Assembly: GCF_030812215.1 (NCBI RefSeq)
Contig: NZ_JAUSSG010000010.1
Span: 186,001 to 250,000, forward strand
Reading direction: 5' to 3'
Length of the DNA stretch: 64,000 nucleotides
Source: Variovorax boronicumulans
Lineage (GTDB): Bacteria > Pseudomonadota > Gammaproteobacteria > Burkholderiales > Burkholderiaceae_C
A program made the position numbers and the translations under genes. Under the pieces are notes generated by a model that saw only the letters and a program-made list of their open reading frames with translations, ran no database searches and was not told where the DNA came from. Positions 39,594 through 59,056 of this stretch are shown here, one piece after another. Each line of letters starts with the position of its first letter. Positions within the stretch are counted from its first letter, which is position 1.

Positions 39594-39816
39594 CGTGGTC
39601 CTCTTGTGCTGATTCCCGGTGGGCAACGCTGGCCCGCTGGATCCGCTTTATGGGGGGCAAATGGAAGCAGCACTATATGGGCTTCGGGGGTTCTTGTCCG
39701 CTGCGACGGCAGGCCTGTGGCGCACGGACCGCAATCGTTTGCGACACCCGGCGACCGGGCCTTCATTTTCCCTCATCCCACAGGGGACGCCGGCGAAGCC
39801 GTGTATACCTACGGCC

Positions 39817-40572
39817 ATGCGACAACTGCCCTGGCTCGAACCCGGCGACACCCTGCCCGACCCGGCATCGGCATGGGGGGTGGCCGACCCCGTTCCAGGC
39901 CTTCTCGCGGCGGGCGGCGCACTCGATGTCGATACTCTGGTGCAGGCCTACAGCCATTGCGTCTTCCCCTGGTTCAGCGACGACCAGCCGATCCTGTGGT
40001 GGAGCCCCGACCCGCGCATGGTGCTGCAGGTGGCCGAGTTCAGGCTGCACCGGTCGCTTCGCAAGACCTTGATCCGATTCGCGGAAACGCCCGGTTGCGA
40101 AGTGCGCATCGACCACGACTTCGCGGCGGTCATCAAGGCCTGTTCGCTCTCGCCGCGCGTCGGCCAGTCGGGCACGTGGATCGTGCCGGACATGGTGCAG
40201 GCCTATACGCAATTGCACGCGGCAGGCCATGCGCACAGCGTGGAGACCTGGATCGACGGCGAGCTCGCGGGCGGACTCTACTGCGTGGCGCTCGGCCGCG
40301 CGGTGTTCGGCGAGTCGATGTTCACCCGCCGCCCGGACGCCTCGAAGATCGCGCTGGCGGCGCTGGTGAGCCTGTGCCGCCGCGCCGGCGTGCAGATGAT
40401 CGACTGCCAGCAGAACACCGCCCATCTCGCCAGCCTGGGTGCCCACGAGATACCGCGCAAGCGCTTCGTCGCCCACGTGGCCAAGGCCCGGGAACAGGAG
40501 GGGCCACGGTGGCAATTCGAGCCCGTATACTGGACCGAACTCCTTTCCGCGCGACCTCTTTCACCGACGTGA
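39817..40572 (+). CDS. aat: Leucyl/phenylalanyl-tRNA--protein transferase Aat
   Basis: A 251-residue transferase that attaches Leu or Phe from aminoacyl-tRNA to N-terminal Arg/Lys residues, marking proteins for ClpAP via ClpS. Signature segments are [50 protein letters not shown] and the GESMF block. I start at ATG 39817 ([11 protein letters not shown]), the usual start of the family. It overlaps the bpt start (GTGA at 40569-40572). Confidence 0.96.
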
Positions 40573-41402
40573 CGCACCTCAAGGATCTCCCGCTTCACAC
40601 GCTGCAGTTCTACGCGACGGCGCCCTATCCCTGCAGCTACCTGCCGGACCGGCAGGCCCGCTCGCAGGTGGCCACGCCCAGCCACCTGATCCACAACGAC
40701 GCTTATTCCGACCTCGTGCTCAGCGGGTTCCGGCGCAGCGGCATGTTCACCTACCGGCCCTACTGCGACGGCTGCCGCGCCTGCATTCCGCTGCGCGTGC
40801 TGGTCAACAGCTTCCGGCCCACACGCAGCCAGCGCCGTGCCGCCAAACAGCATGCCGACCTGCAGGCCCGCGTGCTCAAGCTGTGCTTCGTGCCCGAGCA
40901 TTACCAGCTCTACCTGCGCTACCAGAACGGCCGCCACGCAGGCGGCGGCATGGACCACGACAGCATCGACCAGTACACCCAGTTCCTGCTGCAGAGCCGG
41001 GTCAATTCGCGGCTGGTCGAGTTTCGCGAAACGCTGGCCGACGGCAGCGCGGGCGCGCTCAAGATGGTGTCGATCCTCGACGTGCTGAACGACGGCATCT
41101 CGGCCGTGTATACCTTCTATGAACCCGATGCCCGCGCAGCGCCGGGCCACCCCAAGCAAGCGAACGGCCTCCTCGGGGGGCAGCAAGAGCAGGCAGCGCC
41201 GAGCGTGGGGGCCTCATCCACGGGCTATGGCACCTACAGCGTGCTCTGGCAGATCGAGCAGGCCCGCAAGCTGGGCCTGCCGCACGTCTACCTCGGGTAC
41301 TGGATCGAGCGCAGCCCCAAGATGCATTACAAGGCGCGCTTTTCTCCGCACGAAGTGTTGGTGGATGGACACTGGCAGCCATCCAGCGATTTCACAAGGT
41401 AA
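40569..41402 (+). CDS. bpt: Aspartate/glutamate leucyltransferase Bpt, with a repeat-derived insert
   Basis: A 277-residue enzyme that adds Leu to N-terminal Asp/Glu, a second arm of the bacterial N-end rule. It begins [25 protein letters not shown] and has the [13 protein letters not shown] and [28 protein letters not shown] motifs. Usual length is about 247 aa. An extra segment (residues about 192-217) reads [17 protein letters not shown] and on, between YTFYEPDA and the GYGTYS core. The DNA there is a copy of a dispersed repeat (see 41142-41217). The frame stays open, so the protein probably remains functional. Start GTG overlaps aat. Confidence 0.95.
41142..41217. repeat. In-frame copy of the GC-rich palindromic repeat, in bpt
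   Basis: About 76 bp matching the intergenic copy at 45233-45309 in order: CCGGGCC, CCAAG, GGCCTCCTCGGGGGGCAGC, CGAGCGTGGGGG, TCAT. It lies inside bpt where the family has no such segment, adds about 25 codons and keeps the frame. Confidence 0.8.
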
Positions 41403-41432
41403 AATGGCGCTCGGTCATCACCGCACAGCGCC

Positions 41433-42263
41433 ATGAGAAAAAACCAATCCGACGTTCCTGCCGTTCCCGTGATCCAGGTGATCGAGCGCATGTTCGCGCT
41501 GATCGACGTCCTGGCGTCCCGCGAGGAGGCCATCTCCCTGAAGGAAATCAGCGAGAAAACCGGGCTCCACCCTTCGACCACGCACCGCATCCTCAACGAC
41601 CTGGCCGTGGGCCGCTTCGTCGACCGGCCCGAGGCGGGCAGCTACCGGTTGGGCATGCGCCTGCTGGAACTGGGCAACCTGGTGAAGGGGCGGCTCAATG
41701 TGCGCGATGCCGCGCTGGGCCCGATGCGCGAGCTGCACAAGCTCACGCAGCAGCCGGTGAACCTCAGCATGCGACAGGGCGACGAGATCGTCTACATCGA
41801 GCGCTCGTACAGCGAGCGCTCGGGCATGCAGGTGGTGCGCGCCATCGGTGGGCGCGCAGCTTTGCACCTCACCTCGACAGGCAAGCTTTTCCTGGCAGCC
41901 GATGACCCGGCACGGGTGCGCAGCTATGCCACCCGCACCGGACTGGCCGGCCACACCCGCAACAGCATCACCCAACTGCCTGCGCTGGAGCGCGAACTGT
42001 CGAAGGCTCGCCAATACGGCATTGCCCGGGACAACGAAGAACTGGAGCTGGGCGTGCGCTGCATGGCCGCCGGCATCTACGACGACCAGGGCAAGCTGGT
42101 GGCAGGCCTGTCGATCTCGGCGCCGGCCGACCGGCTGGACGAAGGCTGGCTGCCCAAGCTGCAGGCAACGGCCAATGAAATCTCGAGCGCCTTGGGCTTC
42201 AAGGATGGCGTGGCTGCGGCAACGCCTTCCCCGACAAGCAACACGCCTTCAGCGAGCGCCTGA
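41433..42263 (+). CDS. IclR-family transcriptional regulator
   Basis: A 276-residue regulator with an HTH (FALIDVLASREEAISLKEISEKTGLHPSTTHRILNDL, about residues 20-60) and an IclR effector domain (about 85-255, LTSTGKLFLA and YGIARDNEELELGVRCMAAGIYDDQGK). It begins MRKNQSDVPAVPVIQVIERM. A Pro/Ser/Thr-rich C-terminal tail follows. It lies 30 bp after bpt on the same strand and ends at a shared terminator. Its targets are not adjacent; in many Comamonadaceae an IclR gene follows bpt, which I recall but cannot check. Confidence 0.9.
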   Translation: MRKNQSDVPAVPVIQVIERMFALIDVLASREEAISLKEISEKTGLHPSTTHRILNDLAVGRFVDRPEAGSYRLGMRLLELGNLVKGRLNVRDAALGPMRELHKLTQQPVNLSMRQGDEIVYIERSYSERSGMQVVRAIGGRAALHLTSTGKLFLAADDPARVRSYATRTGLAGHTRNSITQLPALERELSKARQYGIARDNEELELGVRCMAAGIYDDQGKLVAGLSISAPADRLDEGWLPKLQATANEISSALGFKDGVAAATPSPTSNTPSASA

Positions 42264-42287
42264 CCCCTTTGCGGGACACCAAAAGAC

Positions 42288-42312
42288 AAAGCGGGCCTTC
42301 TTGGCCCGCTTT
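42288..42312. terminator. Bidirectional terminator between iclR and pbpG
   Basis: A perfect 10-bp stem AAAGCGGGCC (42288-42297) / GGCCCGCTTT (42303-42312) with a 5-nt loop, A-rich on the left and T-rich on the right. It can end both the plus-strand iclR and minus-strand pbpG transcripts. Confidence 0.88.
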
Positions 42313-42347
42313 ACTTTTGTCGACCGCTATCGCGGCGCTGCAGCGAT

Positions 42348-43532
42348 TCAGCCTGCGACCTGGTAGCTCACACTGCGCGAAGCGGCCGGTGAGCCCGGCA
42401 CGGCGTGCGTCGCCTCGACCCAGCGGCGAACGCGCTCGGCATCGGCGATACGACTGAACTTGCCGGCCGAATCCAGGAACACCATGATCAGCTTGCGGCC
42501 AGCCACCTTGGCCTGCATCACGAGGCACTGACCAGCTTCGTTGATGAAGCCGGTCTTCTGCACGCCGATTTCCCAATCGGGGCTCTTCACGAGTCGGTTG
42601 GTGGTGTTGAACTGCAGCACGCGGTTGCCGACCTCGACCTGGTATTCAGGCGACGTGGAAAGCGAGCGCACCGTGGCATCGGCGTAGGCGGCATTGACCA
42701 GCAGCGCCAGGTCTTGCGCGCTCGACTGGTTGCGGCTCGACAGGCCCGTGGGCTCAACGTAGCGCGTGTCCTTCATGCCGAGCATCTTGGCCTTGGCATT
42801 CATGATGCTCACGAAGGTCGTGAGGCCGCCCGGATAGGTACGGCCCAACGCGTGCGCCGCACGGTTTTCGCTCGACATCAGCGCCAGATGCAGCAGTTCG
42901 CCGCGAGACAACATCGTGCCGACGGTCAGGCGCGAGCGGCTGCCCTTTTCGGTATCGACGTCGTCCTGCGTGATGGTGATCAGCTCGTCGTTCGGCAGAT
43001 GGGCTTCGCTGATGAGCAAGCCGGTCATCAGCTTGGTGAGCGAGGCGATCGGCAGCACGGCGTGGTCGTTCTTGCTGAAAAGCACTTCGTGCGTGTCCTG
43101 GTCGATCACGAGGGCGACGCTCGACTTCAGGTCGAGTGCGTCGTCGGTGCCGTGCAGGCCGGCCATCTGGCCGAAGGACTGGCGCGCCGGCGTTTCGACG
43201 CGCACCACCGAGCGGCGCTGGACGGCCACCACGGTCTTGCCATTCTTCTTGCGGATGGTGGCCACCACGTTGCGGCCGCCGCGAACGACTTTTTCAGCCT
43301 TTTCGCTTCGCTTGGCGACCGTCTTGCTGGAAGCCGCATTGCGCTTGACTTCGACCGGCACGGGCCCCTTCGCCTTTTTGGCGACGGAGGTCTTGGCGGC
43401 CGTTGGCTTTTCTTTCTTTGCAGCCTGGGCGCCAGGCAGCAAAAACGCCGTGGCGCAAAGCGCGACGGCGATGAATTTGAATGCGGGCAGAAACCGCTGG
43501 CTGGAAACTCGGCGGAGACGGGCTTCAGGCAT
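42348..43532 (-). CDS. pbpG: D-alanyl-D-alanine endopeptidase PbpG (PBP7-like, S11 family)
   Basis: A 394-residue periplasmic penicillin-binding protein. It has a signal peptide (FKFIAVALCATAFLLPGAQA, cut after QAA), a Lys/Ala-rich linker (40-110) and an S11 domain with the active-site SxxK (ASLTK), SxN (SSENR) and KTG (QKTGFINEAG). It hydrolyses D-Ala-meso-DAP crosslinks in peptidoglycan. The Lys-rich region before the catalytic domain is longer than in E. coli PBP7 and may bind the wall. ATG 43532 has CTGGAG upstream. Confidence 0.92.
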   Translation of the reverse strand: MPEARLRRVSSQRFLPAFKFIAVALCATAFLLPGAQAAKKEKPTAAKTSVAKKAKGPVPVEVKRNAASSKTVAKRSEKAEKVVRGGRNVVATIRKKNGKTVVAVQRRSVVRVETPARQSFGQMAGLHGTDDALDLKSSVALVIDQDTHEVLFSKNDHAVLPIASLTKLMTGLLISEAHLPNDELITITQDDVDTEKGSRSRLTVGTMLSRGELLHLALMSSENRAAHALGRTYPGGLTTFVSIMNAKAKMLGMKDTRYVEPTGLSSRNQSSAQDLALLVNAAYADATVRSLSTSPEYQVEVGNRVLQFNTTNRLVKSPDWEIGVQKTGFINEAGQCLVMQAKVAGRKLIMVFLDSAGKFSRIADAERVRRWVEATHAVPGSPAASRSVSYQVAG

Positions 43533-43649
43533 TAATAAATCTCCAGCGGCGACAAACGAGGACCGCAGTGTATCGAATTCAAAAAAGACACGCAATATCA
43601 GTTACTTGCATCCTCTTCTTCATTCGAATACCAAGGAACGCCTGAAAAC

Positions 43650-45188
43650 CTAACCTTGCGCTGCAACTCTCTCAGCTTGGCTCTGTAACTTATTGAGAGC
43701 ACTCAAATAAGCCTTCGCCGAAGCGACCACGATGTCTGGGTCTGCACCCACACCATTGACCACCCGCCCTGCGTTTTGTAACCGAACTGTAACTTCACCT
43801 TGGCTCTCTGTCGAGCCACTGATGGCATTCACCGAGTAAAGAACCATCTCGGCGCCGCTCTTGACATGCGACTCGATGGCTTTCAGAGAAGCATCAACCG
43901 GGCCATTGCCGTCGGATTCTCCGGTCACTTCCTTGCCCTGGACTGTGAAGACGACTTTCGCCTGGGGGCGCTCGCCGGTTTCGCTGTGCTGGGAGAGAGA
44001 GACAAATGCAAACTGCTCGTCAACGTTCGACAGCTCTTCCGCGCTGACGAGCGCCAGGATGTCCTCGTCAAAAATTTCGGACTTGCGATCGGCCAGCTCC
44101 TTGAAGCGCAGGAAGGCGGCGTTGATGTCAGCCTCGCCGGCCATCGTCACGCCCAACTCCTGCAGCCGCTGCTTGAATGCGTTGCGGCCGCTGAGCTTGC
44201 CCAACACGATCTTGTTCGCGGCCCAGCCCACGTCTTCCGCACGCATGATCTCGTAGGTGTCGCGGGCCTTGAGCACGCCGTCCTGGTGGATGCCCGAGGC
44301 GTGGGCAAAGGCATTGGCGCCCACGACAGCCTTGTTGGGCTGCACCACGAAGCCGGTGGTCTGGCTCACCATGCGGCTCGCGGCCACGATGTGCTGGGTG
44401 TCGATGTTCAGGTCAAGCCCGAAATAGTCGCGGCGTGTCTTCACCGCCATCACCACTTCTTCGAGCGAGCAGTTGCCCGCGCGCTCGCCCAGGCCGTTGA
44501 TGGTGCACTCCACCTGGCGCGCGCCGCCGATCTTCACGCCGGCGAGCGAGTTGGCCACCGCCATGCCGAGGTCGTTATGGCAATGCACCGACCAGATCGC
44601 CTTGTCGCTGTTGGGAACGCGCTCCCGCAGCATCTTGATGAAGTTGCCATAGAGCTCGGGGATGGCGTAGCCGACGGTGTCGGGCACGTTGATGGTGGTA
44701 GCGCCCTCGGCGATCACGGTTTCGAGCACGCGGCACAGGAAGTCCGGGTCGCTGCGGTAGCCGTCTTCGGGGCTGAACTCCACGTCGCCCACGAGGTTGC
44801 GCGCAAACCGCACGGCGAGCTTGGCCTGCTCATGCACCTCGTCGGGCGACATGCGCAGCTTCTTTTCCATGTGCAGCGGCGAGGTCGCGATGAAGGTGTG
44901 GATGCGCCCGCGGGCGGCGCCCTTGAGGGCCTCCGCAGCGCGGCCGATGTCGCGGTCGTTGGCCCGGGACAGGCCGCACACGGTCGATTCCTTGATGGCG
45001 TTGGCAATCGCCTTGACCGCCTCGAAGTCGCCGTTCGAGCTGGCCGGGAAACCGGCCTCGATGACGTCGACCTTCAGCCTTTCGAGCTGCTTGGCGATGC
45101 GCATCTTTTCGTCGCGCGTCATGGAGGCGCCGGGCGATTGCTCGCCGTCGCGCAAGGTGGTGTCGAAAATAATGAGTTGGTCAGCCAT
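43650..45188 (-). CDS. leuA: 2-isopropylmalate synthase (canonical class)
   Basis: A 512-residue enzyme of the standard LeuA class. It has [16 protein letters not shown] (catalytic metal Asp/Arg), [28 protein letters not shown], and the C-terminal LeuA dimer/regulatory domain. It condenses acetyl-CoA and 2-oxoisovalerate in the first step of leucine synthesis. It lies 125 bp downstream of the second leuA (45314-47017) on the same strand. The gap contains a dispersed repeat (45233-45309). Feedback inhibition by Leu is expected from the C-terminal domain. Confidence 0.95.
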
Positions 45189-45232
45189 CGTGAATCTCCT
45201 TGGGTTTTATTCAGCCGTCGATCAGGCCGACG

Positions 45233-45309
45233 CCGGGCCGCTCCCAAGGCGGCCTGCGGCCCCCTCGGGGGGCAGCGACGACACGCAGTGCGGGGAGCGT
45301 GGGGGTCAT
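45233..45309. repeat. Intergenic copy of the GC-rich palindromic repeat
   Basis: About 77 bp between the two leuA genes. CGCTCCCA (45239-45246) pairs with GGGGAGCG (45292-45299), and the centre has GGCCCCCTCGGGGGGCAG. It matches copies inside bpt (41142-41217) and, inverted, inside the FemAB/GNAT-like gene (58344-58419). Confidence 0.85.
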
Positions 45310-45313
45310 GCCT

Positions 45314-47017
45314 TCAGGCGACTTCAACCACCGATTGTGCGCTGTGCGCGCCCCGGGTTCGCGCCCGTTGCACGCCCGAGACGATGGCTTTCAGCGACGC
45401 CGTGATCACGTTCGCGTCGATGCCGACGCCGAACAGCGTCTGGCTCTCGTCCACGCGCAGCTCGAGGTAAGCCACCGACTTCGCATCGGCGCCGGCGCCG
45501 ATTGCATGCTGGTGGTAGTCCATCACGCGCACCGTATGGCCGGTGGCCTTGCTCAGCGCTTGGGTGAAGGCGTCGATCGGACCGTTGCCGCGGCCTTCGA
45601 TGGCGCGGGTTTCACCGTCCCAGGGCAGGTCGCCGCGCAGGATGACGGAGGCATTGGCGCCCTCGCCTTCTTCCTCGATCACGCGGTGCTGCAGCGACTG
45701 CGCGGTCTCGATGCCGTACTCGCTCACGAAGAGCTGCCAGAGGTCGGCGGCCGTGAGTTCCTTGCCGGCGACGTCCATCACGCGCTGCACGGTCTGCATG
45801 AATTCCATCTGCAGGCGGCGCGGCATCTCGAGGCCGTACTCGCTCTCGAGCAGATAGGCCATGCCGCCCTTGCCTGACTGGCTGTTCACGCGGATCACCG
45901 CCTCATAGCTGCGCCCCACATCCTTCGGATCGATGGGGAGGTAGGGCATGTCCCAGATGTCGCCTTCCTTGCGCGCGGCGAAGGCCTTCTTGATCGCGTC
46001 CTGGTGCGAGCCGGAGAACGAGGTGTAGACGAGGTCGCCGACGTAGGGATGGCGCGGATGCACGGGGATCTGGTTGCAGTGCTCGACCGTCGCGCGGATC
46101 TCGTCGATGTTCGAGAAGTCCAGTTCGGGCGAGACGCCCTGCGTGTAGAGGTTGAGCGCGACGTTCACGAGGTCGAGGTTGCCGGTTCGCTCGCCGTTGC
46201 CGAAGAGGCAGCCTTCGATGCGCTCGGCGCCGGCCATCAAGGCCAGCTCGCCGGCGGCGGTGCCGGTGCCGCGGTCGTTGTGCGGATGCACGCACAAGAC
46301 GATGGAATCGCGACGCGCGAGGTTGCGGTGCATCCACTCGATCATGTCCGCGAAGATGTTCGGCGTGGAGTGCTCGACCGTGGTGGGCAGGTTGACGATG
46401 CACTTGCGCTCGGGCGTCGGCGCCCAGACCTCGGTGACCGCATCGACCACGCGCTTGGAAAAGACCACGTCGGTGCCAGAGAACATTTCTGGCGAGTACT
46501 GGAAGGTCCACTTCGTGTTCGGCTGCTTCGCGGCGAAGTCGTTGAACATACGTGCGTGGCTGCTGGCGAGTTCGACGATCTGGTCTTCGTCCATGCCGAG
46601 CACTACGCGACGCATCACCGGGGCTACCGCGTTGTAGAGGTGCACGATGGCGCGCGGGGCGCCCTGCAGCGATTCGAAGGTGCGGGCGATGAGGTGATCG
46701 CGTGCCTGCGTCAGCACCTGGATCGTCACATCATCGGGGATGCGGTCTTCCTCGATGAGCTTGCGCACGAAGTCGAATTCGACCTGCGATGCGGAGGGAA
46801 AGCCGACTTCGATTTCCTTGAAACCGATCGCCACGAGGGTCTCGAACATGCGCATCTTGCGGGCAATGTCCATGGGCTCGACCAGAGCCTGGTTGCCATC
46901 GCGCAGGTCGGTCGACAGCCAGATCGGGGCCTTGGTCAGCACGGCATCGGGCCAGGTGCGGTCCTTGAGGCCGATCGGGGCGAATGCGCGGTATTTGGCT
47001 TGAGGTTGCTTGAGCAT
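45314..47017 (-). CDS. leuA: 2-isopropylmalate synthase (long class)
   Basis: A 567-residue LeuA of the longer, second class (as in Corynebacterium-type LeuA2). It has [32 protein letters not shown] and the C-terminal LeuA_dimer domain. The start is ATG 47017 ([16 protein letters not shown]). The leader upstream contains a Leu-rich peptide and attenuator. Two classes of leuA in tandem is unusual; one may use a different substrate such as 2-ketobutyrate-derived acids, or the two may be regulated apart. Confidence 0.92.
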
Positions 47018-47066
47018 GTCGATTTCTCTGTGATGGTTGGTAATCAACCAGCAACCCCAAAAACAA

Positions 47067-57820: not shown

Positions 57821-59056
57821 TTGAACGATTATGTCATTCGGGTTCTGGCGTCGCCGTCGGACGTGAGCCCGAAAGCCTGGAACGCGCTGCTCGCCGCGCA
57901 GGCCGAGCCCTCGCCTTTCATGCGCCACGAATACCTCGCGGCACTGCACGAAAGCGACAGCGCATCGCCAGCGAGCGGATGGACGGCGCAGTTCCTCACG
58001 CTCTGGCGCGGCAAGCAGCTCGAAGCCGCCTGCCCGGTCTACATCAAGGACCATTCCTACGGCGAGTACGTCTTCGACTGGGCCTGGGCGAATGCGTACG
58101 AGCAGCACGGGCCCGCCTACTACCCCAAGGCCGTCGTCGCCGTGCCGTTCACGCCGGTGCCAGGCACGCGTCTCCTGGCGCGCGATGCGCAGAGCCGCAC
58201 GCTGCTGGTGCAGGCACTGGTCGCGTGGTGCAAGCAGGAAGAACTGTCGTCCCTGCACCTGCTCTTCGGTGCCGATGACGACATCGCCGCATGCACCGAA
58301 GCCGGGCTGATGCTGCGCAATACGGTGCAGTTCCATTGGACGAATGTGGCCCCCACGCTCGGCACTGACGTGTCCTCGCTGCCCCCCGAGGGGGCGCGTT
58401 TCGCCTTGGGGCGGCCCGGCGGCGAAACCGGCTATCCGGATTTCGACACCTTCCTCGCCAGCCTCGCCCACGACAAGCGCAAGAAGATCCGCCAGGAGCG
58501 CCGCAAGGTCGCCGACGCCGGCGTGAGCTTCCGCTGGTCGCGCGGCAAGGACATCTCCAAGGCCGACTGGGATTTCTTCTACCGCTGCTACGAGCGCACC
58601 TACCGCGAGCACGGCAACCCGCCCTATCTCACACGCGATTTCTTCCAGCGCATGGCCGACACCCTGCCCGAGGCCTGGCTGCTGTTCGTCGCCGAGCGCA
58701 ACGGCAAGCCCATGGCGACGAGCCTGATCGCGCTCTCCACGCAGCCGGACGAACCTCTCGTGGCATACGGCCGCTACTGGGGCGCGCTGGAGCGCGTCGA
58801 CTGCCTGCACTTCGAGGCCTGCTACTACCAGCCCCTTGCCTGGTGCATCGAACACGGCGCCAAGCGCTTCGAGGGCGGTGCGCAGGGCGAGCACAAGATG
58901 GCGCGCGCGCTGATGCCAGTGAAGACCACCAGCGCCCACTGGCTGGCGCACCCGGCGTTCTCGGATGCGGTCGAGCGCTTCCTCGAACGCGAAGGGGCCG
59001 GCATCGAGAACTACATGGACCACCTGGGCGAGCGCAGCCCGTTCAAGGCCGGCTGA
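57821..59056 (+). CDS. GNAT/FemAB-like acyltransferase (DUF482-type), with a repeat-derived insert
   Basis: A 411-residue acyltransferase-like protein of the DUF482/peptidogalycan-biosynthesis family: SPFMRHEYLAALHES, CPVYIKDHSYGEYVFDWAWANAYEQHG, DFDTFLASLAHDKRKKIRQERRK, and YYQPLAWCIEHGAKRFEGGAQGEHKMARALMPVKT. The start is TTG 57821 (AGGAAG upstream). Between FHWTN and GYPDF, where homologues run directly on, there is an extra segment (about residues 175-200, APTLGTDVSSLPPEGARFAL) made by an inverted copy of the dispersed repeat (58344-58419), still in frame. Confidence 0.9.
   Translation: MNDYVIRVLASPSDVSPKAWNALLAAQAEPSPFMRHEYLAALHESDSASPASGWTAQFLTLWRGKQLEAACPVYIKDHSYGEYVFDWAWANAYEQHGPAYYPKAVVAVPFTPVPGTRLLARDAQSRTLLVQALVAWCKQEELSSLHLLFGADDDIAACTEAGLMLRNTVQFHWTNVAPTLGTDVSSLPPEGARFALGRPGGETGYPDFDTFLASLAHDKRKKIRQERRKVADAGVSFRWSRGKDISKADWDFFYRCYERTYREHGNPPYLTRDFFQRMADTLPEAWLLFVAERNGKPMATSLIALSTQPDEPLVAYGRYWGALERVDCLHFEACYYQPLAWCIEHGAKRFEGGAQGEHKMARALMPVKTTSAHWLAHPAFSDAVERFLEREGAGIENYMDHLGERSPFKAG
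58344..58419. repeat. Inverted, in-frame copy of the palindromic repeat
   Basis: Read in reverse complement, this segment matches 45233-45309: GGCCCCCACGCTC, TGCCCCCCGAGGGGGC, CGCCTTGGG, GCGGCCCGG. It lies inside the GNAT/FemAB-like gene, in frame, at a place where the family has no such segment. Confidence 0.82.

Follow-up and report, generated by a model that had tools for sequence, protein, structure and literature searches.

An in-frame insert in a Variovorax bpt gene as a copy of a hairpin-forming repeat, most probably the BRE, that lies mainly between genes

The in-frame insert in bpt

The window, a stretch of 64,000 nucleotides on contig 10 of a 6.75-Mb genome, holds a bpt gene that is longer than its counterparts in relatives, and the additional segment has two further copies nearby, one between genes and one inverted within another gene. 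The features concerned are the following, whereby the ends of the bpt insert can be placed only to within a few bases.

40569..41402, + strand: bpt, GTG start, 277 aa, ATE_N and ATE_C domains, in-frame insert inside
about 41133..41216, + strand: 84-bp in-frame insert, a repeat copy that is missing from the 249-aa Bpt of relatives
41141..41156 (contig 10: 227141-227156), + strand: 16-bp core in bpt, GCCGGGCCACCCCAAG, one mismatch to the family core
45231..45308, + strand: intergenic copy between a 577-aa ORF (45314-47047, - strand) and a 512-aa ORF (43650-45188, - strand)
57821..59056, + strand: FemAB-like gene that holds an inverted copy; start codon uncertain, Pfam match in two stretches
58344..58421, - strand: in-frame copy in the FemAB-like gene, inverted relative to its host gene

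By reading, the two ORFs beside the intergenic copy are both leuA-like. The bpt start itself overlaps the upstream ORF (39619-40572) by the GTGA at 40569-40572, a stop/start overlap that is free of the repeat.

With the insert, Bpt has 277 residues as compared to about 249 in relatives with an empty site, and as 84 bp correspond to 28 codons, the frame is kept. When the insert-bearing Bpt was used as query, five of the best 80 of 585 loci contained the insert, all of them from Variovorax (Variovorax gossypii, sp. 679, OV700, CF313, and Root411; match length 831 nt), whereas the remaining 75 had matches of 723-768 nt without it. The named genomes with the best Bpt matches are also Variovorax. 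The insertion site was read in 42 of these 80 loci, and the five carriers had the same insert at the same position, while the non-carriers had sequences like YEPDTSAGYG or YEPEPGAGYG. The Pfam match of ATE_C to Bpt is split into two stretches, the first of which stops at residue 189, and in an AlphaFold prediction the insert is modeled as a coil between a strand (179-186) and a helix (220-234), in what is overall a poor model (mean pLDDT 49.7, alignment of 16 sequences).

The dN/dS ratio was 1.06 inside the insert and 0.06 in the rest of bpt (15 pairs, 6 sequences), on which basis we read the inserted peptide as a passenger of which only the open frame seems to be kept. Judged from the sequences, the about 28 added residues look like a tolerated passenger, a peptide without detectable selection. 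Synonymous divergence was lower in the insert than outside (0.141 versus 0.306), which could reflect a late or recent spread of the insert or a constraint on its DNA. When 12 long copies of the own genome were compared, any given frame of the six was open in 8 to 12 of them, and survival of the frame is therefore easy in such G+C-rich DNA. In a bpt tree of 18 sequences from which the insert had been removed, the carriers were scattered, with four label changes, at least three of which are forced by well-supported branches, and the nearest bpt outside the insert (locus L033, 94.5% nucleotide identity) has an empty site. Insertion alone does not account for this pattern, and there must also have been losses or exchange of alleles.

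Copies in the genome and in relatives, and their hairpin

Using blastn within the window, the bpt copy matched 58421-58344 with 83% identity (E 1.4e-15) and 45231-45305 with 76% identity (E 1.6e-8), and the next match had an E value of only 0.18. In the own genome, the same query gave at least 40 matches with E values up to 0.01, with scores obtained for 40 of 92 candidates. The 16-bp core GCCGGGCCGCCCCAAG occurs 67 times when up to one mismatch is allowed, versus 0 for the reversed control, and the right half CCCCCTCGGGGGGCAGCGAGGACACG occurs 16 times with up to three mismatches, versus 0 for its control. One of the 67 core matches (L151) is accompanied by no other element sequence. The fetched own loci contained 71 core matches, and 69 copies were kept after two had been dropped for want of element context (L151 and the second match in L015); copies whose core contains an indel (the window leuA copy, L010, L013) were left out of the pairing and flank counts. 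According to a home-made gene caller, 62 of the 69 kept copies lie between genes, four are located 36-71 nt from the start or end of a gene, and three are interior to genes; the nine of 71 matches that the caller flagged in genes are thus the two dropped ones, the four near predicted gene ends or starts, and the three interior ones. The earlier note had seen a dispersed repeat in bpt with an intergenic and an inverted in-gene copy, inserted in frame where the usual Bpt has nothing, and all of this is confirmed by our analyses, including the genome-wide search that it had proposed. Its emphasis on insertion into genes is correct for bpt and incomplete as a description of the habit of the repeat, since most copies lie between genes.

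In the FemAB-like gene, a query that included the repeat matched in 79 of 81 genus genomes. Among the 30 best loci, eight contained one copy (the own locus included), two contained three tandem copies, ten were empty, nine had shortened remnants, and one could not be parsed; as the best matches were taken with a repeat-bearing query, carriers are over-represented in this sample, and as the loci were read via translation, the preservation of the frame is partly built in. The two genus relatives with three tandem in-frame copies (L171, L179) are longer by 249 nt, and the period is 84 nt by reading. The third in-gene copy of the own genome is located in RibF (L136:962-2074, contig 9) at residues about 161-188, directly after the FAD synthetase match (14-163, which stops at position 150 of the 158-position profile); the riboflavin kinase match (213-354) begins further downstream. 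An annotated Fic family protein encoded on a plasmid of Rhodoferax antarcticus (L187:761-1993) also contains a copy, located after the Fic domain match. The intergenic copy in the leu spacer was recognisable only in L033 among 69 compared loci; the leu spacer of L045 was flagged by a lax pattern, and no element is visible there. An Rfam scan of 41000-45500, which covers two of the three window copies, gave no family at gathering score and four weak hits (E 0.094-2.9) that lie off the copies.

The repeat is scattered over a large group of bacteria from soil and water: the exact core was present in 73 of the 81 genus genomes with up to 68 copies (reversed control 0), in 120 of 150 family genomes representing 112 of 141 genera (reversed control 3), and in 23 of 200 order genomes (reversed control 1), of which 18 do not belong to the family. 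Plasmid matches were found in Azoarcus, Burkholderia, Paraburkholderia, Acidovorax, Rhodoferax, and Variovorax. Inserts measure 81-86 bp and a short class A unit 65 bp (class A is defined below); tandem spacings among the matches listed range from 60 to 111 nt, and the core-to-core period is 82-94 bp in genome G364. In the order relative G310 (L259-L261), tandem spacings are 108 and 111 nt and in one case 87 nt, each divisible by three, and the arrays in L260 and L261 begin beside ATGAGC.

Copies across genera have the apex GCCGGGCCGCCCCAA in common, with arms that vary and yet stay complementary. The 37 representatives used to test this comprise one copy each from a genome or named record (two genomes contributed two) and 19 own copies that differ in their arms. 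On average, 6.89 of the 9 positions of the arms are paired, as compared to 3.83 after permutation of the right arms, and 0 of 5000 permutations reached the observed value; arm positions 2 to 9 each show three or four Watson-Crick types. As the representatives were found through their core, the way in which they were sampled accounts in part for the invariant apex, which does not apply to the pairing of the arms. The 35 own copies outside class A also show this signal (6.60 versus 4.54 permuted, maximum 5.31 of 2000), whereas the 34 class A copies, whose arms hardly vary, show no covariation (2.32 versus 2.31). Folding energies of five single copies were not significantly beyond those of shuffled sequences (z -1.39 to +1.26), and the bpt copy folds worse than its shuffle mean (z +1.26). 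The term palindromic, used in the earlier note, is thus appropriate for the family because of the complementary arms and only weakly so for the bpt copy itself.

Stop/start junctions and their empty counterparts

We define class A as those copies in which the core is followed by CAAG or CAGG, and 34 own copies, among them that in bpt, belong to it. An ATGA is found 11 nt before the core in 31 of the 34 and on both sides in 27 of the 34, at a background of 0.0028 per position. The geometry is regular: the upstream stop ends 7 nt before the core, and the downstream ATGA mostly lies at +54, +66 or +75. The flanks of the 35 non-A copies are less regular; some have TCAT, the other-strand ATGA, on both sides, and many do not. 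In class A units such as L021, L022, and L113 (around 1500), a putative mini-ORF MSAAPGRPKQARTAV... starts at the upstream ATGA, and that of L021 terminates with the ATGA on the downstream side.

Empty sites in relatives, which reveal in which direction the change went, could be compared at two junctions, ispD-ispF and rapZ, whose genes were named by reading. At ispD-ispF, 59 of 61 genomes were matched, and the best 30 loci comprise 26 empty ones with an ATGA overlap, three filled ones, and one with a decayed copy; two of the three filled loci carry other arms, GAGCCCCC/GGGGGCTC. At rapZ, 60 of 61 genomes were matched, and the best 30 loci comprise three filled, eight longer or remnant-like, and 19 short ones, of which 13 have an ATGA and six a TGATG overlap. 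At both junctions, ATGA is present once in the empty site and on both sides of the unit when the site is filled, an arrangement that corresponds to a MITE-type target site duplication, and we infer that the second ATGA results from duplication rather than being a codon that the unit carries. Due to the ATGA on both sides of the inserted unit, both junction genes retain their stop and start; in filled junctions the upstream TGA and the downstream ATG are both kept, with a GGAGG- or GGGGG-type sequence before the ATG. Near bpt, a junction of two-component genes (assigned by reading) has an ATGA overlap in the short loci L045, L047, L049, L051, L052, and L057. At this junction, L063 contains a single copy, L060 a decayed one, and L064 a tandem, and other loci have other spacers. 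At the in-gene sites of bpt and the FemAB-like gene, no clean duplication was readable.

As many left arms resemble a host ribosome-binding site and start or a T-tract, we also considered that arms might be derived from the target DNA. This is ruled out at ispD-ispF and in the FemAB-like gene, where the empty sites contain no arm, and at these sites the arms therefore travel with the element.

Origin of the insert and relation to known repeats

On the evidence of these sequence comparisons, we consider it quite probable that the bpt insert derives from a mobile repeat that is non-autonomous, forms a hairpin, has units of about 65-90 bp, and most probably belongs to BRE; it would insert at gene junctions and, inside genes, would be a tolerated passenger. 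In the mechanism that we propose, an enzyme acting in trans would recognise the hairpin and insert the unit with a short duplication of about 4 nt, and copies would survive mostly where this duplication re-creates both stop and start codon and the unit brings a Shine-Dalgarno-like sequence. Survival within a gene would be rare, as the length has to be a multiple of three, the frame has to be open, which is easily the case at high G+C, and the site has to tolerate extra residues; the bpt copy, with its about 28 added residues, would be such a passenger.

Four other explanations have to be weighed against this. An ancestral Bpt loop that resembles the repeat by chance, an objection that the earlier note had raised against itself, can be ruled out, as 75 of the 80 best loci have an empty site and the core has 67 matches in the genome versus 0 for the control. 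It is possible, although we do not favor it, that a single ancient insertion was followed by homologous recombination, which carried the insert from one bpt allele of Variovorax to another without any recent mobility: the site is identical in all six carriers seen, these are scattered on the bpt tree, and synonymous divergence within the insert is low. Such a history leaves the many unrelated copy sites unexplained, and the identity profile of the window bpt around the insert revealed no clear donor segment. Somewhat less probable still, in our view, is that copies are kept mainly as functional RNA elements at operon junctions, where they would act as Shine-Dalgarno carriers or translation-tuning hairpins, with the in-gene copies being accidental. 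The fixed class A geometry, with its constant distance from stop to core and its few positions of the downstream ATGA, agrees with this, as do the covarying hairpin arms and the GGGAGG in the other-strand stem arm of subfamily B, which has an ATG within a few nt (L011, L016, L018); the patchy presence among relatives at both tested junctions, the occurrence of decayed copies, and the ordinary folding energies of the five tested copies speak against it.

Very unlikely, finally, is a REP-like repeat that is mobilised by a RAYT (Y1_Tnp, IS200-like) transposase. The hairpin unit, the tandem arrays, the tetranucleotide that lies 5' of class A hairpins, and the presence of one Y1_Tnp gene in the own genome would fit. 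However, 78 of 81 genus genomes encode Y1_Tnp, among them all eight without an exact core copy, and the three genus genomes without Y1_Tnp still hold 15, 3, and 2 core copies; moreover, the 3.3 kb around the own Y1_Tnp gene contain no core copy (up to two mismatches), and no GTAG tag was noticed by eye. This single Y1_Tnp gene (L153:1471-2163, contig 8) has a gene downstream that was identified by eye as gltB-like.

Returning to the mobile repeat as the preferred explanation, its most probable identity is the Beta-proteobacterial Repeat Element (BRE). According to the available part of the description by Hot et al. (2011; PMC3110155), BREs are G+C-rich units of about 90 bp (75-91), with partial forms of about 40-60 bp, that are mostly intergenic, overlap ORF ends, and in some cases lie wholly within coding sequences; they form tandem arrays of variable copy number with no or few nucleotides between copies, have a patchy genetic context, and occur in Bordetella, Comamonadaceae, and Azoarcus, with 29 copies as the highest count per genome. 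The bpt-type repeat agrees with this in its unit size, its hosts among Comamonadaceae and Betaproteobacteria, its tandem copies, and its mainly intergenic position with some in-gene copies, and by these features, rather than by sequence, it is most probably the BRE. The earlier note knew of no such family in Comamonadaceae, and this novelty probably falls, given a reported BRE of matching size, hosts, tandem habit, and copies in coding sequences (PMC3110155). The same source places a BRE array beside lexA in Bordetella (locus 3); LexA was matched in 58 of the 61 genomes of G364's family, and the core (up to two mismatches) was present at 0 of 30 of these loci, in a sample that perhaps does not include the B. 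pertussis group. The BRE account (section 14, PMC3110155) mentions neither insertion at ATGA overlaps nor empty sites, and neither maintenance of the frame nor a hairpin apex shared by copies with covarying arms. In the literature searched, the BRE name appears in just one paper and the core and right-half strings in none, and among the titles and abstracts listed there was, beyond the work cited here, no paper on a repeat that inserts at ATGA, on a palindrome kept in frame, or on a repeat from Comamonadaceae; the accessible portions of PMC2817692, PMC5217627, and PMC2267715 contain nothing on the bpt-type repeat.

The Rickettsia palindromic elements, to which the earlier note had likened the insert, are described in the part of PMC10969869 at hand as units of about 150 bp that lie in frame in genes that stay open. 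The comparison is right in kind, as here, too, a palindromic repeat is inserted in frame, the host gene stays open, and relatives have the empty site. The units in our case are only about 65-90 bp long (84 bp in bpt), and unlike the conserved peptide of the Rickettsia elements, the peptides in bpt and the FemAB-like gene, which are read from opposite strands, differ, with the dN/dS given above for bpt; in addition, of the 69 kept own copies, three have an in-gene position. According to the portion of PMC3733652 consulted, GTAG/CGTC REPs are hairpins at gene ends that sometimes supply the stop codon and in some cases lie within ORFs. The bpt-type repeat is likewise a hairpin repeat at gene ends with occasional in-gene copies; in contrast to these REPs, no GTAG/CGTC tag was noticed by eye, and there is no link to the presence of Y1_Tnp.

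The occurrence of the repeat in 112 of 141 sampled genera, together with the covarying arms, points to an enzyme that handles the hairpin. More tentatively, we suggest that a mobile hairpin, whose apex is shared and whose self-matching arms are freely exchangeable, may seek out, or survive almost only at, ATGA overlaps, duplicate the overlap, and give the downstream gene a new ribosome-binding site, and that it may in this way have uncoupled overlapping gene pairs repeatedly across Comamonadaceae and beyond, occasionally adding spacer peptides to working proteins; a hairpin-recognising recombinase would then be the responsible enzyme. The features that most deserve to be followed up are the habit of occupying ATGA-flanked junctions and the covarying hairpin arms. 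A little-studied repeat thereby gains a testable site rule, and its filled and empty sites offer a natural comparison for how important translational coupling is at ATGA overlaps and for how new peptide spacers enter conserved proteins.
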